Assembly (NCBI GenBank): GCA_900471815.1
Contig: UICE01000007.1
Location: 186,001 to 250,000 of the forward strand
Reading direction: 5' to 3'
DNA length: 64,000 nt
From: Hyphomicrobiales bacterium
GTDB lineage: Bacteria > Pseudomonadota > Alphaproteobacteria > Rhizobiales > Rhizobiaceae
The notes under the pieces are model-generated. The model saw only the letters and a list, made by a program, of their open reading frames with translations, had not been told where the DNA came from and made no database searches. This document shows, piece after piece, positions 17,750-38,663 of this stretch; the stretch's first letter is position 1, and the number at the start of each line of letters is the position of its first letter. Both the position numbers and the translations under genes were made by a program.

Positions 17750-17796
17750 AAATATCTCTTAGCTTTTCATATTTCGTTGCGCAATTCACCAGTCTG

Positions 17797-18462
17797 TCAG
17801 TCGGCGGATGATTTAAGTGCAGCTGCCGCCGCCCACGGACCGATAACCGCAAAGAACAATGTAATCGCACCTAGAATAAGCAAAGGTGCCAGAAATGGGG
17901 CCGGATCTTCAATTGCGCCATAGGACGCAGATACACCGAAGATGAGCACCGGGATGGTAAGAGGCAAAACAATCACCGAAACAAGCAATCCGCCACGCGG
18001 CAGCGAAACAGCGACCGCAGCGCCAACAGCCCCGATCAGGGTGATTGCTGGTGTTCCAATCAGGAGGGTCAATGTGGTTGCACCAATTGCCAGCGGCTCC
18101 ATGTTCATGAACAGGCCCAGCAAGGGCGCGGCAATAACCAACGGCAAAACGCTCACTGTCCAATGGGCAAGGCATTTCACCAGCACCGTGATCGCCAGCA
18201 AGCGGCGTTCGGAGTTCATGATGAGAAGATCAAGCGAGCCATCATCACGATCTGCCTGAAACAGCCGGTCGAGGCCAAGGAGCGTTGCAAGCAGTGCGCC
18301 GATCCACAGCATGGCCGCGCCAATGCGTGCGAGGAGCTTGAGATCGGGCCCGACGCCGAAAGGCACGACAGCAATCACAGCCAGAAAAAACAATATCCCG
18401 ACCAGTGCGCCGCCGCCCGCCCGTAAACCGAGACGGGCATCTCGCACGAACAATGCGCCCAT
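17797..18462 (-). CDS. ccmB: Heme exporter protein CcmB
   Basis: 221-aa membrane subunit with six predicted helices. It pairs with CcmA as the ABC unit that releases holo-CcmE. The family segment LFQADRDDGSLDLL lies near residue 67. It overlaps the ccmA stop by one base. Confidence 0.95.
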   Translation of the reverse strand: MGALFVRDARLGLRAGGGALVGILFFLAVIAVVPFGVGPDLKLLARIGAAMLWIGALLATLLGLDRLFQADRDDGSLDLLIMNSERRLLAITVLVKCLAHWTVSVLPLVIAAPLLGLFMNMEPLAIGATTLTLLIGTPAITLIGAVGAAVAVSLPRGGLLVSVIVLPLTIPVLIFGVSASYGAIEDPAPFLAPLLILGAITLFFAVIGPWAAAAALKSSAD

Positions 18463-23381: not shown

Positions 23382-23753
23382 ATGGAAAGCAATGCAGGTG
23401 GCGACGATTCGCAGCGCCAGGCGAAACTCATCCCCCTCGTTCGAAACAATGATTTGCCGATTACCTTCGACCGGCGCGAACTCAATCAAATTTTGCGTGT
23501 TTATGGGTTTATGGTGTCCGCTGGCGAATGGCGGGATTATGCCATTGACCATCTTTCCGACAGGGCAATCTTTTCGGTTTTCCGGCGCACCAGCGAAGTC
23601 CCGATGTTCCGCATTGAAAAGAACCCGAAACTGTCACGCAAACAGGGTGCCTATAGCGTTATCGCCGCAAGCGGCCTTATTCTTAAACGCGGGCACGAAC
23701 TCGACAGGGTCTTGCGCATTTTTGACAAGACGCTGAGCATCGTACGCAGCTAG
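23382..23753 (+). CDS. DUF2794 conserved alphaproteobacterial protein
   Basis: 123-aa soluble protein with the family core ITFDRRELNQILRVYGFMVSAGEWRDYAID and FRRTSEVPMFRIEKNP, ending in a basic IVRS. The family is widespread in alphaproteobacteria and has no established function that I know of. The ATG is preceded by AAAGGCGG at a workable distance. It converges on the MATE gene. Confidence 0.85.
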   Translation: MESNAGGDDSQRQAKLIPLVRNNDLPITFDRRELNQILRVYGFMVSAGEWRDYAIDHLSDRAIFSVFRRTSEVPMFRIEKNPKLSRKQGAYSVIAASGLILKRGHELDRVLRIFDKTLSIVRS

Positions 23754-23840
23754 AACAGGCCGCTCGATAGCGCATGCCAAATCTGCCAAGCGCGATCTTT
23801 GAAACATTGCTCACGCATGGCTTTATCTTTCTGAAGCGCA

Positions 23841-25259
23841 TCAGCCCGATATTATCTGGAAAACTTGCTGATTTTTAGAAATGGCCAGCCGGGCGGTGTT
23901 AAGCTCCGCAATAAAGCGCCACCATAACAGAATGCTTGTACTGCCAAAGCCAAGGCACAACCCGAACCAGATGCCATAGCTGCCCCATCCGAACCCGTAT
24001 GCGCACAACACCATCGCGGGAATCCCGATAAGCCAGTAGCCCACAAGTGTATTGAACAGGGCCACCTTCGTTTTTCCAAGCCCCCGCAGCAAGCCGACAC
24101 AGATATTCTGTGAGCCTTTGAAGAATTGGTGCGCAATGGCGAACCATAATAATGTGGCTGCCGCCCCGAACAGGGATGGATCGGCCCGGCCACCGAGAAA
24201 TGGAAGCAAAACTATTTCAGGCAGGAACACATAGACAAGGCCGATAATTGCCATTGCACTGAAGCTGATCGCGAATGTTCGTCGTGCAATAGCGCTGACT
24301 TGATCTGCCTGCCCCTTGCTGACCGTCCTGCTCACAAGAATTGATGAACCTTGCGAAAGGCCAATATTGAGCTGGTAAACAATATAGGCAAGTTGATTGA
24401 CGATATTGGAAGCCGCCAATGCTAACGGACCGAAGGTTCCCATGAAGACCGTTGCTATCGAAGTGATGGCTGCTTCCGAACCATATGTCAGCGTAATCGG
24501 CAGGCCCATCCGGGTAATGATCGCCAATGTTGCCGGGCGTGCCCGCCATCCATCGAGCGCAAGCAGAGGCCTGAGCGCATCATCACGCCGGACGGTTCTC
24601 AGATAGACCAGAAATGTCCATGCCTGAACCAGGGTGGTGGCAAGGCCAATTCCAGCCAATCCAAGCGGAGGTATCCCGAGCCAACCATAGATGAAGATCA
24701 GGTTCAGGCCAGCATTGACGGCTATGGATATTATCGTAACGGTCAATAAGGAACCGGCGCGGCGCATGCCGACCGCGAACTGCCGCAACACGTTTAGCCA
24801 CAGCATTGGCAGCAAGCCCGGGGCCAAGGTCAGCATGATCGGCTTGGCCAAAGTTGCCACCGCAGTCGCTTGGCCAAGGAAAGTCAGGATTTGGCTGAAA
24901 ATCACCAATATGACGCCGGCAATCGTCGCCGCAATTGTTGCAATCAATATTGAGGCACACAGCAGGTCGCGTATTTCGTCAGTCGCGACGTCGTCAATTG
25001 CAGATGTTCCGGTACGTTTCTCGCTGCGTCCGACCGAAGCAGCAATGAGATTGCCAACCCCCGTCACCATACCAACGCACATGGTACGCAGCTGGTTATA
25101 AAGCAGCAGCGAAAGGCCCCCGGCTGCAACGGCCTGAACACTGATGAAACCCATCATCAGCAGATCGGTGCTTGTCAGGGCAACCTGCGCAAACTGGATA
25201 CCTGCAATGGGCGCAGCCAAATCCAGAATTTCTTTATACTGTCTGAAATTTATCGGCAT
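23841..25259 (-). CDS. MATE family efflux transporter (candidate metallophore exporter)
   Basis: 472-aa multidrug and toxic compound extrusion protein with 12 predicted helices in two homologous halves (first helix LAAPIAGIQFAQVALTSTDLLMMG; second half from about residue 235, MGLPITLTYGSEAAITS). It starts 4 bases after the SbnA-like gene and is the last gene of the biosynthetic operon, so export of that operon's product is the natural inference. MATE proteins use Na+ or H+ gradients. Substrate unproven. Confidence 0.9.
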   Translation of the reverse strand: MPINFRQYKEILDLAAPIAGIQFAQVALTSTDLLMMGFISVQAVAAGGLSLLLYNQLRTMCVGMVTGVGNLIAASVGRSEKRTGTSAIDDVATDEIRDLLCASILIATIAATIAGVILVIFSQILTFLGQATAVATLAKPIMLTLAPGLLPMLWLNVLRQFAVGMRRAGSLLTVTIISIAVNAGLNLIFIYGWLGIPPLGLAGIGLATTLVQAWTFLVYLRTVRRDDALRPLLALDGWRARPATLAIITRMGLPITLTYGSEAAITSIATVFMGTFGPLALAASNIVNQLAYIVYQLNIGLSQGSSILVSRTVSKGQADQVSAIARRTFAISFSAMAIIGLVYVFLPEIVLLPFLGGRADPSLFGAAATLLWFAIAHQFFKGSQNICVGLLRGLGKTKVALFNTLVGYWLIGIPAMVLCAYGFGWGSYGIWFGLCLGFGSTSILLWWRFIAELNTARLAISKNQQVFQIISG

Positions 25260-25263
25260 CGCC

Positions 25264-26331
25264 TTAAGCCCACAACGTCGTCGGAGGCACTGATGCCAAC
25301 CTTATCGATTCAATATAGGCGTCAAAAAGCTGGTCAAGGCGACGATGCGCCGGTTTGTCCAGAAGCTGCCGCTCGTTAAGCCAATCATCATTGAAAACGC
25401 TGTCGAGATATTTTTCTCCGGCATCACAAACCAGGACGACCATAATGCTCTTTGGCTCCACGAGCGCCAAACGTTTGAGAGCAACGTGGATGGCAGCGCC
25501 TGCAGTGCCGCCAACGAGAAGGCCGGTTCTGCGCGCCACCACACGTGCCGCCGTGAATGCATCAATATCTTTTACTGTAAGGCCCTCATCGATCAGTTCG
25601 TGCTCGACATTGGGTCCAACCGTAAAACCGGCCGGCGCTCCGGCCCCGGTCTGCCAGTATTTGCCCGGGGCTCCGCCGAAAATAATCGATCCGGCAGGCT
25701 CCACGCCAATGCTTGTCACATGAGAACCGAGACGATGCAGTTCTTTGACCGTTCCACACAGTGTTCCGCCTGTTCCCACCGCGCCAACCAGATAGTCGAT
25801 ATCTGTTCCAACATCCCGAAGCAGTTCCATGGCTAGCCCGGTATAGCCTTCATTATTGCTCGGATTGTAGTGCTGATCCGGCCAGAAAGCGCCGGTAGCC
25901 TTTACAATCTCGCCAGCTACACGGCGTCTGGCAACCGTGCTCGGACCCTCGGTATTGCTTTCCACGAATACAAGCTCGGCGCCCATCGCTTGCATGACCC
26001 GCAGTTTGTCGCGCGAGGCATGATTATCCACAACGGCCGTAAATTTATAACCACGCTCAAGAGCGATCAATGCAAGCCCGGTTCCTGTATTGCCCGAGGT
26101 TGGTTCAACAATATGTCCTCCTGGTTTGAGCTTGCCATCGCGCTCGGCCGCAAGAATCATCTCCCGGGCCATCCGCACTTTACATGAGCCGGTTGGATTA
26201 AACTGTTCCAATTTCAGCAGCAGCCGGCTGCCCGAACCGGTGCGCGACAGCTCCAATAATGGTGTGTCGCCAATCAGCTCGGAAGATTTGGTTTTAATAC
26301 GTTCAAAGGAAGGATTGCTATACACATTCAT
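25264..26331 (-). CDS. SbnA-like PLP-dependent synthase (cysteine synthase fold)
   Basis: 355-aa fold-type II PLP enzyme. The PLP lysine is K51 in NPTGSCKVRMA, the substrate loop is PTSGNTGTG (about residues 78-86), and GTGGT binds the phosphate. A GSIIFGG segment about residue 220 resembles SbnA rather than CysK. SbnA joins O-phosphoserine and glutamate to N-(1-amino-1-carboxy-2-ethyl)glutamate. Co-occurrence with an SbnB-like dehydrogenase supports a diaminopropionate-type pathway over cysteine synthesis. The start overlaps the upstream decarboxylase stop by 4 bases. Exact substrates are inferred. Confidence 0.85.
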   Translation of the reverse strand: MNVYSNPSFERIKTKSSELIGDTPLLELSRTGSGSRLLLKLEQFNPTGSCKVRMAREMILAAERDGKLKPGGHIVEPTSGNTGTGLALIALERGYKFTAVVDNHASRDKLRVMQAMGAELVFVESNTEGPSTVARRRVAGEIVKATGAFWPDQHYNPSNNEGYTGLAMELLRDVGTDIDYLVGAVGTGGTLCGTVKELHRLGSHVTSIGVEPAGSIIFGGAPGKYWQTGAGAPAGFTVGPNVEHELIDEGLTVKDIDAFTAARVVARRTGLLVGGTAGAAIHVALKRLALVEPKSIMVVLVCDAGEKYLDSVFNDDWLNERQLLDKPAHRRLDQLFDAYIESIRLASVPPTTLWA

Positions 26332-27662
26332 CGGTCAATCCTCCACGTAAAACGCTCATTGTCCTCGGTCACGACGATCTTGGGGGGCAAGGCAAGTTGG
26401 TGAAACTCGCTTTCATTTTTATCCATCTGATAGCCGGCAGTATTGGGGTAGATGATGTGGTCGCCATAACGAGGTGGCGCAGGGAAATTGATTTTCCGCC
26501 ACGTCAGGACGTCATATTCCATACAGCTCGATCCACCGATCGCCGCGCTGACGGGGTTCTGTGGCCGAGCCTCTCCGTGTTGAACAAGAAATGGTGCAGG
26601 CAGAAACTCACTGTTCTTCCATTGCTCGGACAAGCTCATGCTGATCCCTGCAACCGTAACGATCCCGTGTTTGTCGTTCTGTTTATATCCCTGCACCGGA
26701 AAGACGGTCATCCCCGCCCCATCCAGCAGAGCTCTTCCAGGTTCCAGATAGAGCTGAATTTGCGCATCAGCGAGGCGCGAAGCCAAAGTGCCAGTCGTGG
26801 CGGGTGATTGGAGTACGGCATCCAGCATCGCGGCGCCGGTTGGCGACTGGTAGTATGGATAAAAGTGGTTAAAGGTCTTCCCGGCGTGAAACTGTGACGG
26901 GTCCATTGCTTCAAGAAAGGAATGCCAGTCCTGCTCATCGATATAATGACAGGCAAAGCCGCCGCCAATTGAGATAGCGGCACTGGGAAACCCTTGCTTG
27001 CGCGCTTCAAGGCAGCGATCAATGAGCGCCAATGCCAATTCAGCACGCGGAGCGACCGCATAGCCATCAAGGTGGAAAGAATAGCCATTCATGATGACGT
27101 ATTCACGGGATTCGGCGCAACGCTTCAGCGCAGTATCCAGGTCTGCCTGGTTCAGCCCAAAACGACTATTGGGCGCATGGGGAGGCAGCACCCGTAGCAA
27201 AATCTGCAATGGAACAGAATACTTGGCAATGCTGATTGCCCGCTCCAGTTCGTCCAAGGCGTCAATAGCGACAGTTGCTTTATGGCGGCAAGACAGCCAG
27301 AGAAGATCATCACTCTTTGCTGCTCCCGTAACACCGATATTACTGCCGCAAATACCGTTTGCCAGAGCGTGGACAAATTCCGGGACACTGGCAACATCAA
27401 CTGAGCCGTCCAGTTTTGCCACTTCGCGCAACCACGCTCCCGCTTTATTGGCCTTCTTGCCGAAATAGACATGCCCGCTCACATTGCGCTGTTTGAGAAT
27501 AGTCTGGAATGCCTCGAGATTGGCGGCAAAACTATCCGGGTGAATGAGATGAAACGGGCCCTCGATTGCGTTGCTGATCTGGCGCAGAAGAGCGGAATCC
27601 TGTCTTACAGCCAGAGCCCAGGGGCGCTCCAAGGCGCGTACGGAGTTGAGGCCTATTTCCAT
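26328..27662 (-). CDS. Fold-type III PLP decarboxylase, Y4yA/SbnH-like
   Basis: 444-aa alanine-racemase/DapDC-fold decarboxylase. The predicted Schiff-base lysine is K70 in YFGKKANK. Other features are SFHLDGY, the phosphate-binding glycine loop SIGGGFA, EPGRALLDGAG, and the dimer-interface C-x-x-x-D pair in SSCMEYDVL, so it looks catalytically complete. The family includes Y4yA of Rhizobium NGR234 and SbnH, which decarboxylates a citryl-diaminopropionate intermediate in staphyloferrin B synthesis. Overlaps of 10 bases with the SbnB-like gene and 4 bases with the SbnA-like gene indicate translational coupling. Confidence 0.86.
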   Translation of the reverse strand: MEIGLNSVRALERPWALAVRQDSALLRQISNAIEGPFHLIHPDSFAANLEAFQTILKQRNVSGHVYFGKKANKAGAWLREVAKLDGSVDVASVPEFVHALANGICGSNIGVTGAAKSDDLLWLSCRHKATVAIDALDELERAISIAKYSVPLQILLRVLPPHAPNSRFGLNQADLDTALKRCAESREYVIMNGYSFHLDGYAVAPRAELALALIDRCLEARKQGFPSAAISIGGGFACHYIDEQDWHSFLEAMDPSQFHAGKTFNHFYPYYQSPTGAAMLDAVLQSPATTGTLASRLADAQIQLYLEPGRALLDGAGMTVFPVQGYKQNDKHGIVTVAGISMSLSEQWKNSEFLPAPFLVQHGEARPQNPVSAAIGGSSCMEYDVLTWRKINFPAPPRYGDHIIYPNTAGYQMDKNESEFHQLALPPKIVVTEDNERFTWRIDR

Positions 27663-28633
27663 AGCTCAATCCTGTTTCCGCGTCCGGCGGCGATGGCTCT
27701 TGTTGCAAGCGCATGGGCAACAGGAATGTCTGTGATGATCATGCCGCTGCTGAAAGCAAATACGCGGTCCTGCTGTGAACGGCGTCCGCTTTTGCGGCCG
27801 ACAATGATATCAGGCAGTTCTGCATCAATTCTGGCAATGCCATCGGGTCCGGCAAGACGTTTTCCCGTGACGCCCAGCTGACCTTCATTTGTCGCAATGG
27901 CATAGTCGGCATCTCCCAGCGCTCCGCCTGCGACGCCCTTGCTTGCGACCGAAATCAGCAATCCACCCTGTTTCAGCCATTTGGTCTCAACTTTGGGATG
28001 GGCGGCACGACCCGAGGCGGCGATCACAATGTCAGATTCGGCAACTGCTGCGGGAACATCCGTTACCAACTCGATGCTACGACCCGGAAAATAGCGTGCA
28101 AACATTCCCAAGCTGGCAGCTATGCCGTCCGGGTGCGTCCCGAAAAGCCGCAGCGTTTCGAGATCTGGAAGAGCGGTCAAAAGAAAAGGAAGCGTATTGA
28201 TGCCCTGTGCTCCGGTTCCAATCATCAATGCAGAACTGGCATTCTCTTTTGCGCAACTCCTGGCAATAAGTGCCGTTGTTGCAGGCGTGCGCAGGCCGCC
28301 TACGCGATGGCAGTCCATCAACGCAAATGGCAAACCGGTTGTGTCATCGTAAAGGCTGATAGTAGTGTAATATTTTTCCGCGCTCTCGGCGCCTTGACGG
28401 TACGAGGTTTTGAACCCGGCCTGTTGGAGTGCGCCATCATAACCAAGCATTGAATAGGCAACGGCATCGCGCTGCTCGAGCGGTAGCGGCATCATAAGCT
28501 TTGTCGGACAACGGGATTGCCCATTTGCATAGAATGCGTAAGCATCTTCCACGAGCCGGATAATATCAGCTGGCGGCAGCTCAATGTCGGCAAGATCGGA
28601 ACGGGTAAGGATATGAATTGCAGGTGTGTGCAT
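27653..28633 (-). CDS. SbnB-like NAD-dependent dehydrogenase (ornithine cyclodeaminase/mu-crystallin family)
   Basis: 326 aa from the ATG. The active-site lysine lies in GFKTSYRQG (K75), the arginine in GGLRTPATT (R115), and the Rossmann glycine motif is GTGAQG (139-144). SbnB oxidatively hydrolyses the SbnA product to L-2,3-diaminopropionate and 2-oxoglutarate. The first gene of the minus-strand operon. The ATG lacks a good Shine-Dalgarno, whereas a TTG five codons upstream (28648) has GGAAAGAG at 7-base spacing and may be the true start. Assignment to SbnB rather than a catabolic cyclodeaminase rests on context. Confidence 0.84.
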   Translation of the reverse strand: MHTPAIHILTRSDLADIELPPADIIRLVEDAYAFYANGQSRCPTKLMMPLPLEQRDAVAYSMLGYDGALQQAGFKTSYRQGAESAEKYYTTISLYDDTTGLPFALMDCHRVGGLRTPATTALIARSCAKENASSALMIGTGAQGINTLPFLLTALPDLETLRLFGTHPDGIAASLGMFARYFPGRSIELVTDVPAAVAESDIVIAASGRAAHPKVETKWLKQGGLLISVASKGVAGGALGDADYAIATNEGQLGVTGKRLAGPDGIARIDAELPDIIVGRKSGRRSQQDRVFAFSSGMIITDIPVAHALATRAIAAGRGNRIELWK

Positions 28634-29007
28634 ATAGGATTTGGTCAAAATTAATCTCTTTCCAAATGATCTTGTCGCGATGAACAGCAATAATTTCTTG
28701 TGTAATCCATAGTCGGCGCATTGATTGTGCCGATGTAAAATAATCAGGTCAGGTGAAGGCGTTGCTTAAAAGGGCGGTGCCAACAAAATTGAGGGAGGCC
28801 GGACTCCCAAATACCTCCATGAAGGTTGATCTAAAAACGGGATCAATATGAACGGAACGTCTGGTTACTAGCTTTGCAATATGGAATTCGTTGAGCTGTA
28901 AATCGGAAGAGCATTTCAAATACAACGATCATTATTCGCAAGATTATTACATCCCTATTACGTATCGAATACATTTTGGTGACTGGCGGTATTTTCGGGA
29001 CTTCCCG
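28634..29007 (-). promoter_or_regulatory. Probable promoter region of the SbnB-SbnH-SbnA-MATE operon
   Basis: About 370 bp between the ABC ATPase stop and the SbnB-like gene, all on one strand, with no gene that I support. It holds a small GGGAG/CTCCC stem (28793-28808) and a direct repeat TATTAC-ATCCC-TATTAC (28945-28961), i.e. hexamers one helical turn apart in AT-rich DNA. These are candidate regulator sites only. The spacing suggests a promoter separate from the transporter operon. Confidence 0.4.
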
Positions 29008-29643
29008 TTAGAGGTTGCGCACTTCATCTGCCACCGCACCAACCAATTCGTGGTCATGGCTGATCAGCAAAGCACCGCCCCCATTTGCAACAAACCTGCG
29101 GACCGCATTGACAACCGTAGCGGTCGTGGCGGGATCAAGCATCGCACTCATCTCGTCGAGAATAATGTAGTTCGGCTTTGCCGCGACGGTTCTGGCCATG
29201 GCAGCGCGTTGAAGCTGGCCGTCGGAAACCTGCGCGGGGTATCGCTCTAAGAGGTCGCATGTCAATCCGACAGAAGCAATGAGTTCGTCAACATCAACAT
29301 CCGGTTTGGCGATCTGCCGGATGGTTTTCCCCAAGGTCAGTTTTGGATTGCATGAGCGGCGGGGAGACTGGAACATCATGCCTATTCTGCCCTGCACCGT
29401 TCGGCCGGAGCGGCCACGGACATTTCCGACGCTAAAACCATCACAAGTGACCAGTCCGTATGATGGTTGGATAAGGCCCGCCATCACCCGCCCGAGGGTT
29501 GTTTTTCCTGTCCCGGATGGCCCGGTCAAACCCAATATCGACCCGGCATGAACAGTGAGGCAAACCTTGTCGAGAATCCGGACGGGACCAGACTGGGAAC
29601 GCCCGAATTCAACAATTACATTCTCTGCTTTCAAGCAAGCCAT
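29008..29643 (-). CDS. ABC importer ATP-binding protein, OppF/NikE/CntF type (short)
   Basis: 211-aa ABC ATPase, last gene of the Opp/Nik-type importer. Walker A is GPSGTGKTT (41-49), the Q-loop is in MMFQSP, Walker B is YIILDEMSAMLD, and the H-loop is in LISHD. The signature reads VSDGQLQR where most relatives have LSGGQLQR. The protein stops about 18 residues after the H-loop, shorter than NikE-type subunits, which add a C-terminal tail. Start ATG 29643 overlaps the stop of the upstream ATPase gene by one base. Confidence 0.82.
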   Translation of the reverse strand: MACLKAENVIVEFGRSQSGPVRILDKVCLTVHAGSILGLTGPSGTGKTTLGRVMAGLIQPSYGLVTCDGFSVGNVRGRSGRTVQGRIGMMFQSPRRSCNPKLTLGKTIRQIAKPDVDVDELIASVGLTCDLLERYPAQVSDGQLQRAAMARTVAAKPNYIILDEMSAMLDPATTATVVNAVRRFVANGGGALLISHDHELVGAVADEVRNL

Positions 29644-30484
29644 CACAGCGCTCCGGCGGCTGAAAGCCGTGCCGCGTAATTATAGGTTTCGGGCAAATCA
29701 GTAAGCACGGGTGGCACGCCCGGCATCATGTGCAATCCATTGCGGGGTAATGCGGCAAGCAGGTCGCGGGTGTAACGCTCCTTTGCTCCGCCAGCCAATA
29801 TATCGCGTGCTTGCCCGCTCTCTACCATTCGGGAAGCATACATGACGCTTACAGTGTCAGCAGCACCGCTATCGATGAGCTCCGCTATATCATGCGTGAT
29901 GAGGATCACGGCAGCGCCCGCATCTGCGGTCCGGCGTAAAAGGCGCAAGAGCCCCACCGTAAGATCGGGATCCAGAGAAGCCGTCGGCTCGTCAGCAATA
30001 ATTACTTGCGGATTCCCGCCAACGCGAAGGCAACCGCTGCGCGCTGGGCCATTCCGCCGGACAGTTCATGCGGATAGAGGCTGAGCGCGGTGGGGCTGAG
30101 ATCAACATGGCTCATCAGCTCGCTGGGCGTAAGCGGGCCGCCAAGGACAGTGACAGTCTCAGTGAGCTGCGATCCCACGGTGCGCACCGGCGTCAGGAAG
30201 GTGGCTGCCGATTGCGGTATAAGCGCAATATTGCGGCCCGCCAGTTCACGTTCCCGCCCAAAAATGCTCTGCCCATCATAAGTAATATTGCCTGTGACCT
30301 TGGCCGAGCGTGGCAGCATCCCTGTAAGAGCTTGCGCGATCATTGATTTTCCGCAACCGGATTCGCCCACCACCGCATGAATGCGGCCCTGCTCCAGCGT
30401 AAGACTGACCCGTGTAACCGCATGTACGACACCGCCGTTCAAAAGTGGCAGTCGGATGGTGAGATCGTCTATAATTACAGTCAT
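29643..30484 (-). pseudogene. ABC importer ATP-binding protein, OppD/NikD/CntD type, disrupted by a 1-base frameshift
   Basis: The N-terminal part (MTVIIDDLTIRL start, Walker A GESGCGKSM at about 40-48, signature LSGGMAQR) reads to a premature TAA after AFALAGIRK. Shifting one base at the GGG run (30015-30017 on the plus strand) restores NPQVIIADEPTASLD (Walker B), ITHD (H-loop) and an oligopeptide-transporter C-terminal domain ending at 29643. One missing G in a run of three explains it exactly. It could be a real inactivating mutation or a sequencing error; no classical slippery heptamer is present. Without correction the importer lacks a complete ATPase. Confidence 0.85.
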
Positions 30485-31326
30485 CAAATAGAACCCCGCA
30501 CGCCATTCATGCGGCCCGTGAGGTTCGTACCCACAATCCCGATAGACAAGGTAACCGCGATTAAAAACAGGCTTGGAAATACAAGCAGCCACCATTGCCC
30601 AAGCAGCAAAGCCCCTTGCGCATCGGCAAGGAGCGTGCCGAGCGATGCTTTGTGCACAGAGAGTCCAATCCCAAGGAACGACAAAGTCGATTCATGCCAG
30701 ATTGCATGCGGTATGAGGAGTACGAGTCCGATCATGCTTTGACCAAGTGATGCAGGCACAAGATGGTACCAAATGATCTGCCAGCGACTCATCCCTGAAA
30801 GCCATGCCGCCTCGACATATTCGGCATGTCGAAGCCCCAATATCTGCGCTCTCACGATGCGCGCAATCTGAATCCAATGCGTTAGAACAAGAGAGGCAAC
30901 AATTGCCAGCAGTGAGCCTCGGAATAGGGACACGATGATCACCCCGAGCAAAACATGTGGCAACGCGTTCATTCCATCCATAAGGCGCGTAATGGTTCGG
31001 TCGACCCAGCCGCCCGTCATACCCGCAAGAATTCCAAGCAGCATGCCAAACAGGCTTGATCCGACGGCCGTCGTCAGCGCAATCGTCAACGATATTCGCA
31101 GCCCGGCCGCCACTCTGATAAATAGATCATGGCCAGCAGAGTCTGTGCCGAAAAGACCACCTGCACCAGGCGCAAGCCCGCTGCGCGCAAAGTCAGCCGA
31201 TAGGAGATCAACATTGGTTACCCAAGGCACAATAAACGCATAGCCGCCGATCAACATAAGTACAGCCCAGGCTATTGATACGGCTGGAGAGGGCAAAAAT
31301 CGTCGATTCCAGGAGACCTCAAGCAT
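30484..31326 (-). CDS. ABC importer permease, OppC/NikC/CntC type
   Basis: 280-aa BPD_transp_1 permease. An N-terminal helix precedes GLFGTDSAGHDLFIRVAAGLRISL, the hallmark N-terminal segment of OppC-type subunits. The EAA loop (EAAWLSGMSRWQIIWYHLVP) contacts the ATPases. An earlier ATG at 31356 would overlap the preceding gene by 38 bases; the ATG at 31326 gives an 8-base overlap and is preferred, without strong Shine-Dalgarno evidence for either. Confidence 0.9.
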   Translation of the reverse strand: MLEVSWNRRFLPSPAVSIAWAVLMLIGGYAFIVPWVTNVDLLSADFARSGLAPGAGGLFGTDSAGHDLFIRVAAGLRISLTIALTTAVGSSLFGMLLGILAGMTGGWVDRTITRLMDGMNALPHVLLGVIIVSLFRGSLLAIVASLVLTHWIQIARIVRAQILGLRHAEYVEAAWLSGMSRWQIIWYHLVPASLGQSMIGLVLLIPHAIWHESTLSFLGIGLSVHKASLGTLLADAQGALLLGQWWLLVFPSLFLIAVTLSIGIVGTNLTGRMNGVRGSI

Positions 31327-32317
31327 CGGCGTCCACGCGCGGATCGAGAACGACATAGATCACATCCGCCAGCAGATTTCCGATCAGCACCAGCATTGTT
31401 ATAGCAAGCGTGAGAAAGGTCAGCAGAGGAAAGTCCAGAGATTGCGCGCTTCTGACGAGCGCGCTTCCCAAGCCCGGCCAGGCGAAAATTGTTTCAACGA
31501 GAACAGAACCGACAACAAGCTCCGGTAACCGCGCGCCCACCAGCGCTATGAAAGGTGGCAATGCAGTTGGCAGGACGTGTCGGCGCAAAATCATCGGGTA
31601 CGGGATGCCGCGAACACGCGCGCCCCGCACCGCATCAGAGGTCAACACTTCGGCAATTGAATCCTTCAGGCTTAAAACCAGCCATGGTATCTGAGTTACG
31701 CCCAAAACCAGGCCTGGAACCAGAAGGTGGCGCACTGTCGATGCAAAGCCTATTGGCTGCCCCGGATATGTCAGCCCTCCAGTCGGCGCCCAATGCAATG
31801 ACAAAGCAAAAAGACCAAGTGCGGAAAGCGCAAGGACAAATGGAGGGGTTGCCTGCAATATGATCGTCAGAACACCGATCGAGCGACTGATCAGGCTTTG
31901 CGGCCGAAAGCCGGCAATGGCGCCCAACAGGAGCGACACAACCACACTGATCATCAATCCTGTTACACCCAATAGAAGGGTCCATGGCAATCGGTCCCGA
32001 AGAACCTGCGCAACCGGCTGATAGTACGATCGGGATATGCCGAGTTCTCCGCGAAACAGGCTGCTTATCCACTCCCACCATGTCAGATACCAGGGAGTAT
32101 CCAGACGCAATTCTGTGACGAGTTTTGCCTGTTGCGCAATGCTGAGCTCTCCGGCACGGCCGTCCATATAGGCATCAAGAGGATCATAAGGACTCACCGC
32201 CGCAAGCGCAAAGACACCAATGGTGACGAGGACGAGAAGTGGGATCAAAAATCCGAAGCGTCTGGCAACCATGACAAGAATATCGTGGCGCCGACGGCGC
32301 CACCTTTCATGCAACAT
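31319..32317 (-). CDS. ABC importer permease, OppB/NikB/CntB type
   Basis: 332-aa BPD_transp_1 permease with six helices. Seen are the first helix at FLIPLLVLVTIGVFAL, the substrate-channel region beginning RLDTPWYLTWWEW and GELGISRSYYQPV, and the EAA-type motif GARVRGIPYPMILRRHVLP. The frame is open further upstream into the binding-protein gene; the ATG 8 bases after that gene's stop fits operon spacing. Confidence 0.9.
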   Translation of the reverse strand: MLHERWRRRRHDILVMVARRFGFLIPLLVLVTIGVFALAAVSPYDPLDAYMDGRAGELSIAQQAKLVTELRLDTPWYLTWWEWISSLFRGELGISRSYYQPVAQVLRDRLPWTLLLGVTGLMISVVVSLLLGAIAGFRPQSLISRSIGVLTIILQATPPFVLALSALGLFALSLHWAPTGGLTYPGQPIGFASTVRHLLVPGLVLGVTQIPWLVLSLKDSIAEVLTSDAVRGARVRGIPYPMILRRHVLPTALPPFIALVGARLPELVVGSVLVETIFAWPGLGSALVRSAQSLDFPLLTFLTLAITMLVLIGNLLADVIYVVLDPRVDADA

Positions 32318-32324
32318 ACCCACA

Positions 32325-33947
32325 CTATTGCCTCTGCCAATTTTCGATCGCATACCATGGGCCAAACCCCACTCCATGCGTATGAGGCTCCAGAATCGCA
32401 GCATCCCTTGTGAAACCTTGCTGCCGCTTCACATAAACATGATTGAGATAGGCCAGTTGCAGCATGGCAGGCTTCAATCGATATTGCTGCTGTATCTGCC
32501 GGTATAGATCGACCCGCTTACCGGAATCCTGTTGAACGCGCGCTTCATCCAGCAAGCGATCGACAGTCGGATTGATGTAATCAGAACCATTGTCCCATTT
32601 CGCTCCCACTCCGGGCTTGGCATATTTTGAGTGCAGAATATGATAAATCTGGCCATCAATCGAGTAAGGTATGCCGCCGCCGCCCAGCATGACTGGGGTG
32701 CGGGCGTAGACTTCCGCAGTTACTGACTTGGAGTCCTGCGCTACCAGATTGAGCTCAATGCCAATTTTCTTAAGATCACTGGCGGCTGCAAGACTTAGAT
32801 CCTTGCGCGCACGATCACGATTGGGGAAATAGATAACGTCGAAGGCTGCACGCAGACCGTTCCGAGCGCGCACGCCATCCGGCCCCACGACCCACCCCGC
32901 ATTGTCGAGAATTTTCTTTGCCTGTTCGGGATCATATGGAAACTCTTGACCCGGGTCATAGCTGTCACCATAAAACGAAGCCAAAAAGGTGGAATTCGCA
33001 ACGCCATGCCCTTTCAGCACATGCTTGACCATGCTCTCACGATCCACTGCGAGATTAACAGCAAGGCGCACCGCATCGTCACCGGCAACCGGATCGCCAG
33101 CCGGGAGCGTAAGGCCTCGCCAATCGGCAGTAGGAACGGAAATTACTTCAAACTCAGGAGCCTGAAATGTTTGCGCCAGCTCGGCAGCCAGCATACTGCC
33201 ATCGCCCTCACCGGCGCGCAGTTGCTGAGCGCGGGCATTTTCATCGGCCGTGTGGCGGATGATGATCTTGTCGACCTGTGGCTTGCTGTCCCAATAATCG
33301 GCACGCGCACTCATGATAGCCTGGTCTGGCCGAAGTTCGGTCAGCACATATGGACCCGTGCCAATAGGCTTGTCATTAAGCGAAGAGTTTTCCGCTTTAC
33401 CAAGATTGGCGAAATCGAACGCTTCGGAAGGGGCGATTGAATTGAGCAAGCGGCGACCAAACTCCGCCAAGGGTTCCTTGAGTGTAAACTTAACTGCGCT
33501 ACCCTCCGCCTCGACCTTTTCCACTTCGTCCCACGCAGAGATTTCCGACGATGCGGAACGAGGATCAAGCAGGGCCTTGAAGGTGGCCACGACATCCTCG
33601 GGACCAAACGTCGTGCCGTCGGAAAAACGCACACCGGAGCGAAGTGGTACCGTCCAGACGCGATTATTGTCGCTTGGGACACTGGGACCGGAAGCAAGGA
33701 TTGGCGTAAGGGCAGGTTGCTTGTTGAAAACGCCTGTCTCAATCCGATAAAGACCTTGATAGATATGCGAGTCGCCGTTGCGACCGTGACCAGTGATTGG
33801 ATTGTACCGGCCCAGCATATCTCCATCGATGATGATAACGGTGTTGACCGAAGGGGACGATGTTTCCGCCAAGGCAGGCGGAATAACCAAAAAGATGCTT
33901 GTAATTGCAGTAGCGAGCAAGCACCTGACGTTCATTAAAGAGGTCAT
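32325..33947 (-). CDS. ABC importer substrate-binding protein, DppA/NikA/CntA type (SBP_bac_5)
   Basis: 540-aa periplasmic binding protein. The signal peptide runs to about ALAETS. Then come the SBP_bac_5 hallmarks: IYQGLYRIETG, VWTVPLRSGVRFSDGTTFGPEDVVATF, GTGPYVLTEL, and repeated YDPEQAKKILDNAGW blocks. Homologues bind peptides, nickel chelates or opine metallophores (CntA). Start ATG 33947 is preceded by AAGGA; another ATG four codons later is possible. The ligand is not deducible by eye, but location beside the SbnA/B/H operon favours a metal-chelate. Confidence 0.9.
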   Translation of the reverse strand: MTSLMNVRCLLATAITSIFLVIPPALAETSSPSVNTVIIIDGDMLGRYNPITGHGRNGDSHIYQGLYRIETGVFNKQPALTPILASGPSVPSDNNRVWTVPLRSGVRFSDGTTFGPEDVVATFKALLDPRSASSEISAWDEVEKVEAEGSAVKFTLKEPLAEFGRRLLNSIAPSEAFDFANLGKAENSSLNDKPIGTGPYVLTELRPDQAIMSARADYWDSKPQVDKIIIRHTADENARAQQLRAGEGDGSMLAAELAQTFQAPEFEVISVPTADWRGLTLPAGDPVAGDDAVRLAVNLAVDRESMVKHVLKGHGVANSTFLASFYGDSYDPGQEFPYDPEQAKKILDNAGWVVGPDGVRARNGLRAAFDVIYFPNRDRARKDLSLAAASDLKKIGIELNLVAQDSKSVTAEVYARTPVMLGGGGIPYSIDGQIYHILHSKYAKPGVGAKWDNGSDYINPTVDRLLDEARVQQDSGKRVDLYRQIQQQYRLKPAMLQLAYLNHVYVKRQQGFTRDAAILEPHTHGVGFGPWYAIENWQRQ

Positions 33948-34234
33948 TAAAAAATCAATCCTTTTAATACAAACTGCAAAATTAATCGGCGCGGCGTGGA
34001 GAAAAATTTCCAAAACTCAATTCACGTAAATCGATACTTAATAACATAACCTATCTTCTCACAAGCTGTTTTTTATGGCGTGAAATTTTCCGGTTTTTAG
34101 GCCTCGGTAGATGCGATCGGCGCGCTGTTATTGACAGCACCGCATACGGATGATAGCCGTATGATAATATGATTGTTTTAGTCAATTTATATGTTAGATG
34201 ATATATTATTACACATAATCAAGAAGGTCTTATT
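33948..34234. promoter_or_regulatory. AT-rich divergent control region between the two importers
   Basis: 287 bp serve both the Opp/Nik-type operon (minus) and the FecBCDE-type operon (plus). Two perfect inverted repeats sit together: GCTGT-TATTG-ACAGC (34124-34138) and CATACGG-ATGATAG-CCGTATG (34143-34163). A consensus -35 hexamer TTGACA lies inside the first repeat (34131-34136), so a repressor bound here could block plus-strand transcription. No clear Fur, Irr, RirA or Zur consensus was recognised. AAGAAGG lies just before the plus-strand ATG. Confidence 0.5.
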
Positions 34235-35200
34235 ATGCTTGGCAATGGGCTTAAGTCACTTTGTACAATTGGTTTGATTGGTATTTTGACAGTGGGGTCC
34301 GCTACGGCTGACAGCACAAAGACGCAATCTATCGTTGATGAGCGGGGAACGACGGTCCAAGTGCCGGTTGAACCCAAACGCATAGCCGCCATTTCTTATT
34401 TCGCTACGGATGTTGCGTTCGCGCTTGGCATCAAACCAGTGGCGACCACCTACATGGCGGCCGGTCGCGACCCCGATTTTCTTCTGGGCATGACAAAGCA
34501 GATCAAACAAATCGGCCAGCGGGCCAAACCAAATCTGGAATTGCTGTCGGAAGCCAAACCCGACATTATCGTTGCCATGCGCCGCTACACTATCGGCAAT
34601 GCCGAACAGTTGCAGAAGATCGCGCCTTATGTGGCTTACAATATGGAGCTTTTGAGCGAAAGCGATCGCGAGATCTCCCAACTTGCAAAGATACTCGGCA
34701 AGCCCGAGCGTGGCGATGAACTGAATGTGGCATTCTCCCAGCACCTTGCCGAATACAGTGCCAAAGCGCCGAAAAATGTGCATCCGCGTTTTCAGATCAT
34801 GTGGGCTGGAGATACCCCGTGGTCTTTCCATACCGAGAATACGACGGCCTCGATTGTGGCGGCTCTCGGCGGTGACAATATCGCAGGCTCAATGCGTCCC
34901 GGCGGACCATTCGGGATAGAACTCAGTCTTGAGGCTATGCTGGAAAAAGACCCCGAGGTCATTTTTGTCTACGATTCTGGCCCCGACCGCCCCCACGAGA
35001 ATAACCCGATCTGGCAGCAGCTTTCTGCAGTCAAGAATGGCCGCGTTTTTTATGTGGCCGATCATTGGGTAGAAACCAACGGTCCAATCGCCCGCGAAAT
35101 CGTTTTGCGTGAAGCAGCGCACTATCTTTATCCGGACACCTTCCCGAAGGTCGATGTCAGAGCGGAAGCCGCTAAGCTGATACCTTCAGACATTCAGTAG
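34235..35200 (+). CDS. Siderophore/metal-chelate ABC transporter substrate-binding protein (FecB/FepB type, PF01497)
   Basis: 321-aa periplasmic binding protein with a signal peptide ending about GSATADS. The class III binding-protein core carries VDERGTTVQVPVEPKRIAAIS at the N-lobe, PNLELLSEAKPDIIVA before the long linker helix, and the C-lobe LEAMLEKDPEVIFVYDSG. Relatives bind Fe-siderophores, heme or cobalamin. It opens a four-gene operon, has AAGAAGG six bases before ATG, and is divergent from the Opp/Nik-type importer. Confidence 0.9.
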   Translation: MLGNGLKSLCTIGLIGILTVGSATADSTKTQSIVDERGTTVQVPVEPKRIAAISYFATDVAFALGIKPVATTYMAAGRDPDFLLGMTKQIKQIGQRAKPNLELLSEAKPDIIVAMRRYTIGNAEQLQKIAPYVAYNMELLSESDREISQLAKILGKPERGDELNVAFSQHLAEYSAKAPKNVHPRFQIMWAGDTPWSFHTENTTASIVAALGGDNIAGSMRPGGPFGIELSLEAMLEKDPEVIFVYDSGPDRPHENNPIWQQLSAVKNGRVFYVADHWVETNGPIAREIVLREAAHYLYPDTFPKVDVRAEAAKLIPSDIQ

Positions 35201-35233
35201 TTATACTTCTTGGCGCAGCGGCAAAAAACGGGG

Positions 35234-36229
35234 ATGGGGCGATCAGCAACTATGACCGCCCTTATTGTGGCAACAGGCCTGCTGGTTGTGGTTGCCGGCC
35301 TGCTCGTCGGCTCCAAACCGCTAGGATTGTCCAAGGTTCTATCGGTTCTCGTATCGCCCGATGGCAAGATTGAATCAATCCTTGTTTGGACACTACGCTT
35401 GCCCCGAAGCCTTTCGGCCCTTGTGGCAGGCGCGGGGTTGGCGGTGTCGGGCTATCTGTTGCAGGCGCTAACGCGCAACCCTCTGGCTGGTCCGGATATT
35501 ACCGGCGTCGCATCGGGCGCCGTAGCACCCATCGTATTCTGCTTTGTATTTCTACCGTGGATTTCGTCGGTCTATCATCCATTTGTCGGGTTGGCTGGCG
35601 GCCTGACTGCTGCTTCGGTGACACTTTGGATATCGCGTGGCGGAAGGGGCCGTCCGCTGCATCTTGCTCTTGGCGGCATCAGCGTTTCACTTTTTCTGGG
35701 AGCAATAACCACCTATGTTCTGCTGCTCAGCGGACCGCAAACACCTTCCCTCCTTTTCTGGTTATCCGGCGGGTTTCAGGGAAGATCATGGCCGCAGCTT
35801 CTGTACATGACACCTTGGGTTGCTGTTGCCGTGGTCGGCGCTTTTGCCTGCCAGCGTGTCATCGGCATGCTGGCACTCAGCGAGCATGCATCCATCGGCA
35901 TGGGCCTGAATATGAATTTGTGGAAACCGATACTCCTTGTGCTTGCTATTATGCCCGTAGCCGGTGTCGCGCCGGTCGCGGGGCCAGTTGCTTTCGTTGG
36001 TCTTGTCTCGCCCCATATTGCTCGACTGCTCAAGCCGCAGAGCACCCTATGGTCAATTGCCTTGACAACCGCCATTGGTGCCTTGATGGTTGTAACTGCC
36101 GATGTGATTGCCCGCAGCATTGCCCTGCCGCGCGAACTTCCGGTGGGAATTATCACCGCATTGCTGGGTGGCCCATTCTTTGTCTATCTCGTCCAAACGC
36201 AAAGTTTTTCGCTGAAAGGCGGTCATTGA
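35234..36229 (+). CDS. FecCD-family ABC permease (first)
   Basis: 331-aa iron-chelate permease with about nine to ten helices. Family segments: TLRLPRSLSALVAGAGLAVSG, QALTRNPLAGPDITGV, and the C-terminal GPVAFVGLVSPHIAR plus the closing ELPVGIITALLGGPFFVYL. A TTG at 35210 would add eight residues; the ATG chosen (35234) follows an ACGGGG. It is followed by the second permease after one base. Confidence 0.92.
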   Translation: MGRSATMTALIVATGLLVVVAGLLVGSKPLGLSKVLSVLVSPDGKIESILVWTLRLPRSLSALVAGAGLAVSGYLLQALTRNPLAGPDITGVASGAVAPIVFCFVFLPWISSVYHPFVGLAGGLTAASVTLWISRGGRGRPLHLALGGISVSLFLGAITTYVLLLSGPQTPSLLFWLSGGFQGRSWPQLLYMTPWVAVAVVGAFACQRVIGMLALSEHASIGMGLNMNLWKPILLVLAIMPVAGVAPVAGPVAFVGLVSPHIARLLKPQSTLWSIALTTAIGALMVVTADVIARSIALPRELPVGIITALLGGPFFVYLVQTQSFSLKGGH

Positions 36230-36230
36230 C

Positions 36231-37265
36231 ATGACAATGTCCGCCCCGGTCCAACGCCCATCTCTCATTGCACCATTATTCGCTTTGCTCGCATTAATGG
36301 TGCTGGTATTTTTGGCCGCGGTGTTCTTGGGCGTTGCGGATCTTCCGGCGACTGATGTAGCAGCGGTCATGGCGGGCCATGGTTCTGACCAAGCCAAATC
36401 AATCATTCTGGATATCCGGCTACCGCGTATTGTTACTGGAATACTTGCAGGTATTCATTTCGCCGTCGCTGGACTCTTGTTGCAAACCATCACCCGAAAT
36501 CCACTCGCCGATCCCTCGATCATGGGAATTTCGCAGGGTGCAACGCTGGCCGTCACAATTTTCCTTTTGTTTGCCGTCTATATTTACGATCCCGGCTCCA
36601 ATACGCTCGCGGTACTGCCGGTCGCATGGCTACCAGCTATTGGCACTGTCGGCGGCATCATGGCGGGTGGCATCATTTATCTCCTCGCCTTCAGGCTCGA
36701 TCTGGGACCGCTCAGGATCACTTTGTGTGGCATCGCAATCGGCGCCGTCCTGCACGCCGCCGCTATCGGATTGATTGCCGGATGGGGTTCAGCGCGCATT
36801 GAAATCCTCCTGGAATGGTTATCCGGCAGCCTTTACGCACGCAGCTGGAATCATGTGCTTTTCCTCCTGCCCTTTACAGTTGCAGGGCTCGCCGTGTTGC
36901 CGATCCTGCGGCGCTCTATAGACCTTTTGCGGTTCGATCCCCCGGTTGCACGATCCTTCGGTCTCTCCTATCGCAAACAATTGTCGGTTGTTCTGCTGTT
37001 GTCTTGCGCGCTTGCGGCAAGTGCCGTCGGTGCTGTTGGCCCCATCATTTTTGTGGGACTTGTCGTTCCGCATCTTGCCCGTTTTTTGGCAGGAAAACGT
37101 TTCGCGCTTGTACTGCCTTTTACCGTTGCTCTCGGCGCATTCATTGTTACCTTGGGCGATCTTCTTGGCCGTCTCCTCGGACAGACCGAAGAAATCCCCA
37201 TCGGGGTGATCACGGCGGTCTTTGGGGTGCCGGTATTGATCGCCCTGCTTCGCAAGATACCTTGA
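36231..37265 (+). CDS. FecCD-family ABC permease (second)
   Basis: 344-aa permease homologous to its neighbour: DIRLPRIVTGILAGIHFAVAG, QTITRNPLADPSIMGISQGA, GPIIFVGLVVPHLARFL, and EIPIGVITAVFGVPVLI at the end. The two permeases form a heterodimer in this transporter type. It starts one base after the previous stop. Confidence 0.92.
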   Translation: MTMSAPVQRPSLIAPLFALLALMVLVFLAAVFLGVADLPATDVAAVMAGHGSDQAKSIILDIRLPRIVTGILAGIHFAVAGLLLQTITRNPLADPSIMGISQGATLAVTIFLLFAVYIYDPGSNTLAVLPVAWLPAIGTVGGIMAGGIIYLLAFRLDLGPLRITLCGIAIGAVLHAAAIGLIAGWGSARIEILLEWLSGSLYARSWNHVLFLLPFTVAGLAVLPILRRSIDLLRFDPPVARSFGLSYRKQLSVVLLLSCALAASAVGAVGPIIFVGLVVPHLARFLAGKRFALVLPFTVALGAFIVTLGDLLGRLLGQTEEIPIGVITAVFGVPVLIALLRKIP

Positions 37266-37273
37266 GGATCATA

Positions 37274-38071
37274 ATGCCCCTCTCCTGCTCGCAACTGTCG
37301 GTTTTATATGGATCGCGCAAAGCGTTGAACAGCTTCAACATTGACCTGAAGGCCGGAGAGGTTCGGGCGCTCATCGGGCCCAACGGCTCGGGTAAGAGCA
37401 CTGCATTGCAGGCACTCTCAGGTTTGATCGTGCCGCGGGAAGGTCGCGTTGAAATCAACGGCAAACCCGCCAAACTAATGTCGCGACGAACTATTGCCAA
37501 GCAGATGGCTTTCCTGCCGCAACAACCTTCGGCTCCCGACGAGATGACTGTTGAACAGCTCGTCAGGCAGGGCCGCTATCCGCATGTAGGCTTGTTTCGC
37601 AGCTACAACAGCCATGATGAACTGGCCATCGAATGGGCGTTGGAAAGCACAGGGCTGACCGCTCTTGCTGACCGAAGCCTGCTCGAGCTTTCGGGAGGCG
37701 AGCGGCAGCGCGCCTGGATATCAGCGGCGCTGGCACAAGAGGCCCAGATCCTGCTGCTGGATGAACCGACATCGTTTCTCGATATCGGTTTTCAGGTGGA
37801 AGTCCTCAATCTGGTTCATCGTCTTAGCCGCGAAAGGGGCGTGACAATTATCATGGCCATTCATGACATCAATCAGGCCATCTCCGTCAGCGACCGAATT
37901 TCGCTGCTGGAAAAAGGCCAGTTGCTGTTCGATGGCGAGCCCAATGCCCTTGCCGAAAGTGGCCTGATCGAAAAAGTATTCCGGGTTAAAGGCAACTTTG
38001 TCCGCATCACGCCGGAGAGCCGTCCGCACTTTGATATTGAGCTTGCCCGAATGCCAGGCGCCAGGATTTAG
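37274..38071 (+). CDS. Siderophore/metal-chelate ABC transporter ATP-binding protein (FecE/FepC type)
   Basis: 265-aa ABC ATPase. Walker A is GPNGSGKST (about residues 36-44), the Q-loop is in FLPQQP, the signature is LSGGERQR, Walker B is ILLLDEPTSFLD, and the H-loop is in IHDINQA. The frame is open far upstream, but GAGGA before the ATG at 37274 and an 8-base gap after the permease fix the start. It closes the importer operon. Confidence 0.93.
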   Translation: MPLSCSQLSVLYGSRKALNSFNIDLKAGEVRALIGPNGSGKSTALQALSGLIVPREGRVEINGKPAKLMSRRTIAKQMAFLPQQPSAPDEMTVEQLVRQGRYPHVGLFRSYNSHDELAIEWALESTGLTALADRSLLELSGGERQRAWISAALAQEAQILLLDEPTSFLDIGFQVEVLNLVHRLSRERGVTIIMAIHDINQAISVSDRISLLEKGQLLFDGEPNALAESGLIEKVFRVKGNFVRITPESRPHFDIELARMPGARI

Positions 38072-38114
38072 AGCTCTTCTGTAGCGGGCAGAACGATTCT
38101 ATCCAAGCAGAACC

Positions 38115-38663
38115 TTAAGCCTTTAGCGGTGGCTGATCTGGAAGCGTTGATGCCCCGCCATTCATATCAAGCTGCATCAAAACCGTATCCAGCCAGCGAC
38201 CATGCTTGAAGCCAGAGGCTTCTATCTTGCCGCAATGCCGGAAGCCTGCCTTGGTATGAAGCTTTACGGATGCAGAGCCTTCGTGACCGTCGCCGATAAC
38301 CGCGATAAACTGACGGAACCCCAAGGCAGTGCAGTCATCAATCAGTCTCTGGATGAGGATTTTCCCCAAGCCCTTTCCTTTGGCTTCCGGCGCGATGTAG
38401 ATCGAGTCTTCTACTGTCCACCAATAGGCAGGGCGTGACCTGAAATAGCTGGCATAGGCATAACCAATAACCTTACCGCCCTGCTCGGCCACCACATAGG
38501 GAAAGCCATCTGAAACAAGCGAATGAAACCTTTTCGTCATTTCCTGAAGATCGGGCGCGTCGATCTCGTAAGTAGCTGTGCCGTGAAGGACGGCATCGCG
38601 GTAGATTTCAGTGATGGTTTCGAGATCGGCAGGCTGCGCGGGGCGGATATGAATGTCAGACAT
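38115..38663 (-). CDS. GNAT N-acetyltransferase, phosphinothricin/methionine-sulfoximine acetyltransferase-like
   Basis: 182-aa acetyltransferase starting MSDIHIRPAQPADLETI. The acetyl-CoA motif is APEAKGKGLGKIL (about residues 88-100), with the PAYWWTVEDSIY segment characteristic of PAT/MddA (YncA) proteins and a C-terminal GFKHGRWLDTVLMQ. Such enzymes acetylate methionine analogues or phosphinothricin; the true substrate is unknown. An ATG 12 codons upstream is also possible. It lies beyond the importer operon on the opposite strand. Confidence 0.9.
   Translation of the reverse strand: MSDIHIRPAQPADLETITEIYRDAVLHGTATYEIDAPDLQEMTKRFHSLVSDGFPYVVAEQGGKVIGYAYASYFRSRPAYWWTVEDSIYIAPEAKGKGLGKILIQRLIDDCTALGFRQFIAVIGDGHEGSASVKLHTKAGFRHCGKIEASGFKHGRWLDTVLMQLDMNGGASTLPDQPPLKA

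Follow-up and report, generated by a model that had tools for sequence, protein, structure and literature searches.

A putative zinc-responsive island for an EDDS-type metallophore, with two unrelated importers, in a presumed Phyllobacterium genome

Ethylenediaminedisuccinic acid (EDDS) is a biodegradable isomer of ethylenediaminetetraacetic acid (EDTA) (PMC9252823). Its synthesis genes (aes) were reportedly found via Zur sites, and its production is inhibited by zinc (PMC9252823, PMC13379591). Reports on ethylenediaminesuccinic acid hydroxyarginine (EDHA) describe an 11-kb cluster in S. scabiei (scab_5231-5311; PMC8914351), a four-gene operon, AesA-D, for an iron-responsive product (PMC10702961), and a family found mainly in Streptomyces, Nocardia, and Corynebacterium (PMC11888242). 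Another report lists a MATE protein and an iron regulator for an "aminopolycarboxylic acid metallophore" cluster of Nocardia (PMC10920908). We analyzed a stretch of 64,000 nucleotides (the window; positions 186,001 to 250,000 of contig UICE01000007.1, assembly GCA_900471815.1) from a bacterium of the Hyphomicrobiales. It contains an inserted island (23752-38120; 14,369 bp) that encodes an ornithine cyclodeaminase (OCD)-family dehydrogenase, a Y4yA-type decarboxylase, a CysK-like enzyme, and a MATE-family exporter (together, the quartet), along with two ATP-binding cassette (ABC) importers. We consider it probable that this is a horizontally gained, Zur-controlled, zinc-responsive metallophore island of the aes (EDDS/EDHA) type, with EDDS or a close analogue as its product.

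An earlier reading of the letters alone (the original prediction) had called thirteen consecutive genes a metallophore module with SbnA-, SbnB-, and SbnH-like enzymes, a MATE exporter, and two ABC importers. Reading frames and family profiles placed the named genes where it had put them, and the number thirteen stands if the two pieces of the first Opp ATPase are counted as one broken gene, but not otherwise. The Sbn and transporter labels are best taken at the family level (the SbnA, SbnB, and Opp/Nik models scored under their cut-offs, and the MATE model above). We searched an alignment of the decarboxylase against 84,980 species genomes, which gave 215 relatives, and examined the loci of the best 80 (given L numbers here). 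The order OCD, Y4yA, CysK, MATE was found in 69 of these 80, which came from Actinobacteria and Proteobacteria. Therefore, the arrangement in the window is not due to chance. A more distant CysK (34-35% identity) was placed first in 7 of the 80 loci, and 4 lacked one or more quartet members within the stretch examined. With score thresholds and flanks of at most 10 kb, an Opp importer with a binding protein (OppA) 45-50% identical to that of the window was found near the quartet in 13/80 loci and a FecBCD set in 7/80. This neighborhood check, with both pairings recovered across genomes, bears out the call of a metallophore module. The claim that the combination belongs to no described system did not survive. 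The enzymes match, by context, the Aes type of EDDS/EDHA metallophores, and Opp-type importers adjoin the quartet in Nocardia, Kribbella, and Streptomyces.

An additional gene marks the EDHA-type branch. In all 17 Streptomyces-type loci and in Nocardia aurea L064, a gene for an Fe/2-oxoglutarate hydroxylase of the OrfP/VioC type directly precedes the OCD gene (L075-L092 without L089, and L064; e.g., L077, 7904-8893). It was matched in 18/86 loci, with no match in the other 68 or in the window at an E value of 1e-5. The matches of the L077 protein in the PDB include L-arginine beta-hydroxylase (4m23; E 6.3e-53), and the top one (6daw) is named merely a non-heme iron hydroxylase. Its NCBIfam scores were 265.5 bits for enduracididine hydroxylase GntD and 222.2 bits for arginine hydroxylase VioC. 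Both are below cut-off, so arginine hydroxylase is a likely rather than a proven name. From Opp to MATE, 13 of the 17 Streptomyces-type loci measure 10.8-11.2 kb (of the other four, three are truncated and L078 has an extra distal match). Five Amycolatopsis loci, which we take to be close to the EDDS producer, have the quartet without Opp or Fec relatives (L058, L062, L063, L070, and L072); their tree neighbors are L068, with an OppA remnant, and L060, with a full Opp set. From this context, rather than from a direct comparison, we conclude that the quartet corresponds to AesA-D (aesA-D presumably being the names used in the EDDS operon too).

The island resembles the S. scabiei EDHA cluster (BGC0002567), judged from 17 other Streptomyces-type loci, in having the quartet and an Opp-type importer. 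However, those loci have the arginine-hydroxylase-like gene in addition, their Opp proteins are distant (22-39% identity), and the surroundings of their quartets yielded no FecB/C/D set. It resembles the A. japonicum [S,S]-EDDS genes, judged through relatives, in having the quartet (seen free-standing in Amycolatopsis loci), a predicted Zur-type box, and no arginine hydroxylase. It differs from them in its two importers and in a mean identity of 55-70% to the Amycolatopsis group. In a tree of the three enzymes (77 sequences, read without support values), the proteobacterial loci stand beside a group that we call Nocardia A and then the Amycolatopsis group, with Streptomyces far off. The window OCD is on average 73% identical to those of Nocardia A, 70% to those of Amycolatopsis, and only 46% to those of Streptomyces. 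The window copy, without a hydroxylase, appears to group with the EDDS side.

The same three steps could also make a rhizobactin core or another new ethylenediamine opine from a different amino acid (e.g., lysine) and a different 2-oxo acid (e.g., pyruvate). Rhizobactin is described as ethylenediamine coupled with alanine, lysine, and malic acid (PMC7676072, which also links rhizobactin B to rhbAB), and the substrates are not fixed by sequence. However, the window enzymes are nearer to the group presumed to make EDDS than to that of EDHA, and we regard such a product as unlikely.

The insertion defines the real unit of the locus. We infer that the genus is Phyllobacterium, and we compared the window with 19 other genomes of that genus. 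The blastn alignment with the closest relative, which is 84.5% identical over the left flank, breaks off at 23751 and picks up at 38121; the relative has 5 bases at this junction. Matches to the DUF1223 and GNAT-like genes that border the insert are separated by 742-807 bp in 19/19 other genus genomes and by 15,118 bp here. To one side of the insert are an aconitase-like gene (named by eye), DUF1223, and DUF2794, and to the other are the GNAT-like gene (also named by eye) and a Bax1-I gene. The window decarboxylase had no match in the 19 other genus genomes at an E value of 1e-30; at that threshold 3/118 other relatives and 2/396 other genomes drawn from the order had matches, at just 32-36% identity. 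It is up to 76% identical to plasmid-borne relatives, some of them annotated as Y4yA family. Horizontal gain is the simpler reading of this distribution, with repeated loss as the alternative. No tRNA was found between 20000 and 42000, and no repeats of at least 14 bases, the length that the search covered, flank the insert. No report of such an island in Phyllobacterium appeared in the literature covered, which included few subscription journals and, for the genus name, the first 15 of 106 papers.

Candidate Zur boxes point to zinc as the regulating metal. We built a 17-base matrix from four distinct boxes at 10/19 genus loci, downstream of a znuA-type gene (the nine box-free loci were left out). 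The genes behind these boxes are presumably aztD-like or COG0523-like (named by eye). The same genome has a FUR-family gene (39 bits) at a distance of about 2 kb from this znuA. Within the window, the three highest-scoring sites fall in two promoter regions of the island (Table 1): one some 290 bp upstream of the OCD gene, and two in the region from which the Opp operon and fecB diverge. Column-permuted matrices put their three best sites in those two regions in 0/1000 cases, two or more in 22/1000, and one or more in 243/1000. For the divergent region by itself, 0.94% of random sequences matched to its composition gave a best score as high. Single Zur sites were dropped as proof because random sequence attains such scores. 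We also scanned actinobacterial promoters with actinobacterial consensus boxes, trying two promoters where Opp leads the operon. A Zur-type box preceded the operon, at a control fraction of at most 0.05, in 5/7 Amycolatopsis and 11/14 Nocardia A loci. The scan upstream of the Streptomyces OCD genes gives no information because that stretch is mostly inside the hydroxylase gene.

Several findings weigh against a zinc-responsive EDDS-type island. A score of 16.6 bits was reached in 1/30 random 64-kb sequences. A site of at least 13.8 bits was tied to a cluster promoter in only 5/15 proteobacterial relatives (L007, L011, L013, L014, and L017); L022 has a 15.6-bit site that is not tied to a gene. 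The FecB promoters of quartet-free copies in four genus genomes score at most 6.5. Iron boxes (2-4 mismatches) occur upstream of OCD in 7/7 loci of a second group, Nocardia B (L037-L042 and L057; L042 is titled Arthrobacter), and a mixed actinobacterial group of nine loci is split, with Zur-type boxes in 4 and iron boxes in 2, one of these having both. One report places an N. mangyaensis aminopolycarboxylate cluster under iron control (PMC10920908). One Opp ATPase is broken, and the island has no TonB receptor (there are four elsewhere in the genome). Finally, the match with the A. japonicum and S. scabiei genes was judged by context. The Nocardia B boxes and the N. mangyaensis report indicate that the metal can differ. 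The predicted boxes suggest that one quartet responds to zinc in some lineages but to iron in other ones, a metal switch within a biosynthetic family.

The same enzymes might serve an iron-siderophore island, making an aminopolycarboxylate for Fe(III) with uptake mainly by FecBCDE. Importers of this type are classically ferric. The Nocardia B boxes, the iron response described for EDHA (PMC10702961), and the iron regulator predicted for the Nocardia aminopolycarboxylate cluster (PMC10920908) are all consistent with this. However, the window promoters fit the Zur box of the genus, most loci of Amycolatopsis and of the sister group Nocardia A have Zur-type boxes, and the lack of a TonB receptor in the island counts against a siderophore as well. 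We consider iron a rather improbable answer for this locus and continue with zinc as the likely metal.

Table 1. Features of the island, with positions in the window and the evidence for each
Feature	Position	Strand	Evidence
Inserted island	23752..38120		blastn breakpoints versus closest relative; flank spacing in 19/19 genus genomes
MATE-family exporter	23841..25259	-	TIGR00797 155.2 bits, above cut-off 147.4; closes quartet in 69/80 loci
CysK/SbnA-like pyridoxal phosphate (PLP) enzyme	25264..26331	-	PALP 228.8 bits; NCBIfam SbnA 234.6 bits, below cut-off 349.95
Y4yA/SbnH-like fold-III PLP decarboxylase (Orn/DAP/Arg-decarboxylase fold)	26328..27662	-	Orn_Arg_deC_N 46 bits
OCD/mu-crystallin-family dehydrogenase (SbnB-like)	27653..28648	-	PF02423 95.6 bits; NCBIfam SbnB 90.5 bits versus cut-off 326.9
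Zur-like box upstream of biosynthetic operon	28936..28952		Third best site of 64-kb window, 13.7 bits
Opp/Nik-type ATPase (OppF/NikE-like)	29008..29646	-	TIGR02769 129.6 bits, below cut-off; ABC_tran 84.7
Opp/Nik-type ATPase (OppD/NikD-like), broken	29643..30595	-	N-terminal piece alone: NikD model 97.1 bits, below cut-off
Opp-type permease C	30484..31356	-	NF045476 178.4 bits, below cut-off; BPD_transp_1 92.1
Opp-type permease B	31319..32404	-	NF045472 225.6 bits, below cut-off; BPD_transp_1 123.4
Family-5 solute-binding protein (NikA/YntA-like, OppA)	32325..33947	-	SBP_bac_5 233.4 bits; NikA model 155.3 bits, below cut-off
Zur-like box upstream of Opp operon	34036..34052		Second best site of window, 15.4 bits
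Zur-like box upstream of fecB	34198..34214		Best site of window, 16.6 bits
FecB/FhuD-type binding protein	34235..35200	+	PF01497 91.9 bits
FecCD-type permease	35210..36229	+	Reading frame; 58-74% identical to quartet-neighboring permeases of 11 proteobacterial loci
FecCD-type permease	36231..37265	+	Reading frame; 60-78% identical to quartet-neighboring permeases of 11 proteobacterial loci
FecE-type ATPase	37274..38071	+	PF00005 110.5 bits

The chemistry of the island is of a known kind; its importer pair and its presence in this genus are unexpected. Among 92 loci, the window alone pairs its two importer lineages (in A. vitis L007 and Xaviernesmea L017, FecBCDE is accompanied by a different Opp lineage, at 25-36% identity). 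The quartet and the Opp/Nik-type importer are on the minus strand, and FecBCDE is on the plus strand. The Opp/Nik reading frames together span 29008-34013, the family-5 binding protein frame opening at 34013 with a likely ATG start at 33947 and a signal-peptide-like stretch. Its PDB matches include NikA, YpYntA, and SaNikA, families that bind metal chelates such as FeEDTA. The quartet-linked proteins to which it is 45-50% identical come from 13 actinobacterial loci. Its nearest plasmid relatives are in Rhodococcus (up to 46.5%; 16 records, all Actinobacteria), and in a sample of 385 genomes from the class, none of the other 384 matched it at an E value of 1e-90. Therefore, the Opp importer looks actinobacterial. 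Two Rhodococcus plasmids carry a related Opp importer with no annotated quartet nearby (L161, 8917-13909; L162, 8986-13972) and with ArsR/SmtB metal regulators a few kilobases away.

The FecBCDE importer, in contrast, appears from its relatives to be rhizobial. Its nearest DNA match, on a plasmid of Phyllobacterium, is a copy that lacks the quartet (78.8% across 26% of the island). FecB-type importer genes without the quartet decarboxylase and without a Zur-like box occur in four of the 19 other genus genomes (L160, 8971-12785; L164-L167), and 3/4 of these copies share a different conserved promoter block. Quartet-free importers of this kind are possible xeno-metallophore importers. The OppD/NikD-like ATPase is in two pieces in different frames (30595-30002 and 29957-29643). 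The frame changes at 29957-30002, between the signature motif and Walker B, as a result of either a true frameshift or a sequencing error. The break may leave FecBCDE as the working importer. More tentatively, the proteobacterial branch might make a zinc chelator that is neither EDDS nor EDHA, recovered under one Zur circuit by two unrelated importers, one of actinobacterial affinity and one rhizobial, e.g., with one taking up the zinc complex and the other a different metal or the free ligand. Relatives with FecBCDE alone would then be xeno-metallophore users.

For an EDDS-type product, we propose the following pathway, in which the substrates, product, metal, transport direction, and importer roles are predictions. 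The CysK-like enzyme would condense O-phosphoserine with an amino acid, joining the amino-acrylate of the former to the amino group of aspartate. The Y4yA-type decarboxylase, whose profile matches structures of diaminopimelate and N-citrylornithine decarboxylases, would strip the carboxylate of the new diaminopropionate unit to give N-(2-aminoethyl)aspartate. The OCD-family dehydrogenase (frame open from 28690, likely start 28648 by comparison with L007) would couple the free amine reductively to a 2-oxo acid, oxaloacetate yielding EDDS. The MATE protein would export the product. Its metal complex, which might be small enough to pass through porins, would be recovered by the NikA-like Opp importer and/or FecBCDE, and with ample zinc, Zur would repress the three transcription units.

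Three enzymes suffice on paper for this chemistry, so the missing enzyme elsewhere that the original prediction had allowed for is not needed. The whole genome gave 0 matches to IucA/IucC, the nonribosomal peptide synthetase-independent siderophore (NIS) synthetases, at an E value of 0.001 (E. coli and Haloferax controls were positive), and completion by such an enzyme was rejected. This also bears on a staphyloferrin B-like route, in which SbnA/SbnB-like enzymes make L-2,3-diaminopropionate (L-Dap) and the decarboxylase acts on citryl-Dap from an NIS synthetase encoded elsewhere. All three enzymes have Sbn relatives, those of SbnA, SbnB, and the SbnH-type fold being remote, and the S. fredii y4xMNOP-y4yAB and Proteus proteobactin (pbt) loci combine decarboxylase, CysK-like, and oxidoreductase genes with a siderophore synthetase. 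However, those loci have that synthetase and an MFS exporter, which the island lacks, and the window proteins score far under the SbnA and SbnB cut-offs; we consider this route very improbable. Staphylopine and pseudopaline (cnt) systems also use a family-5 binding-protein ABC importer for the metal-opine complex. Unlike them, the island has no nicotianamine-synthase-like family among the ten cluster proteins scanned (the rest of the genome was not searched), and a Pfam scan of the cluster found PALP, Orn_Arg_deC_N, and OCD as the only biosynthetic families, with no staphylopine-type opine dehydrogenase. A degenerate locus that makes nothing any more, or one serving amino-acid use, is suggested by the one frameshifted ATPase but is very improbable because the remaining frames are open, a MATE exporter and two importers are present, and the quartet is conserved across phyla, often with importers (catabolism was judged unlikely on the same grounds).

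The source of O-phosphoserine was also considered. In rhizobial loci, a small ParB-fold, SerK-like gene precedes the OCD gene, and such a gene lies near or before the quartet or its distant relatives in L007 (14299-14757) and 16 other loci. The protein scores 37.7 bits against NCBIfam SerK (cut-off 380), has no Pfam match, and gave E values of 1.9e-4 against a free serine kinase structure and 0.43 against SbnI. By size and place, the gene seems to resemble y4yB, whose role in the type III secretion locus of S. fredii is unexplained. One rhizobial SerK-like protein used as a query had no match in this genome, in a search without a positive control, which makes ordinary serine synthesis a possible source of O-phosphoserine. 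The Ti plasmids L009 (pTi_CFBP1905; 14560-18420) and L021 carry ParB-fold, OCD, Y4yA, and CysK genes with no MATE match, and the L009 genes adjoin genes for phosphoenolpyruvate mutase and CDP-alcohol phosphatidyltransferase. This set likely makes a different product. On the M. avium plasmid pMAH135 (L010, 9262-14753), the quartet, with a distant CysK first, lies beside copper-handling genes.

Overall, this block of a root-associated bacterium very probably serves to produce a small, EDTA-like chelator from the EDDS family, to secrete it, and to take it up again, most likely for zinc. It would tie a little-read but widespread quartet, including the rhizobial "Y4yA" genes, to natural EDTA-like chelators and name NikA-like and FecBCDE proteins as candidate importers for them. 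It also suggests a sequence rule, in which presence of the hydroxylase predicts EDHA and its absence together with a Zur box predicts an EDDS-like zincophore. Because EDDS is biodegradable, Gram-negative producers near roots would be of interest for soil metal nutrition.

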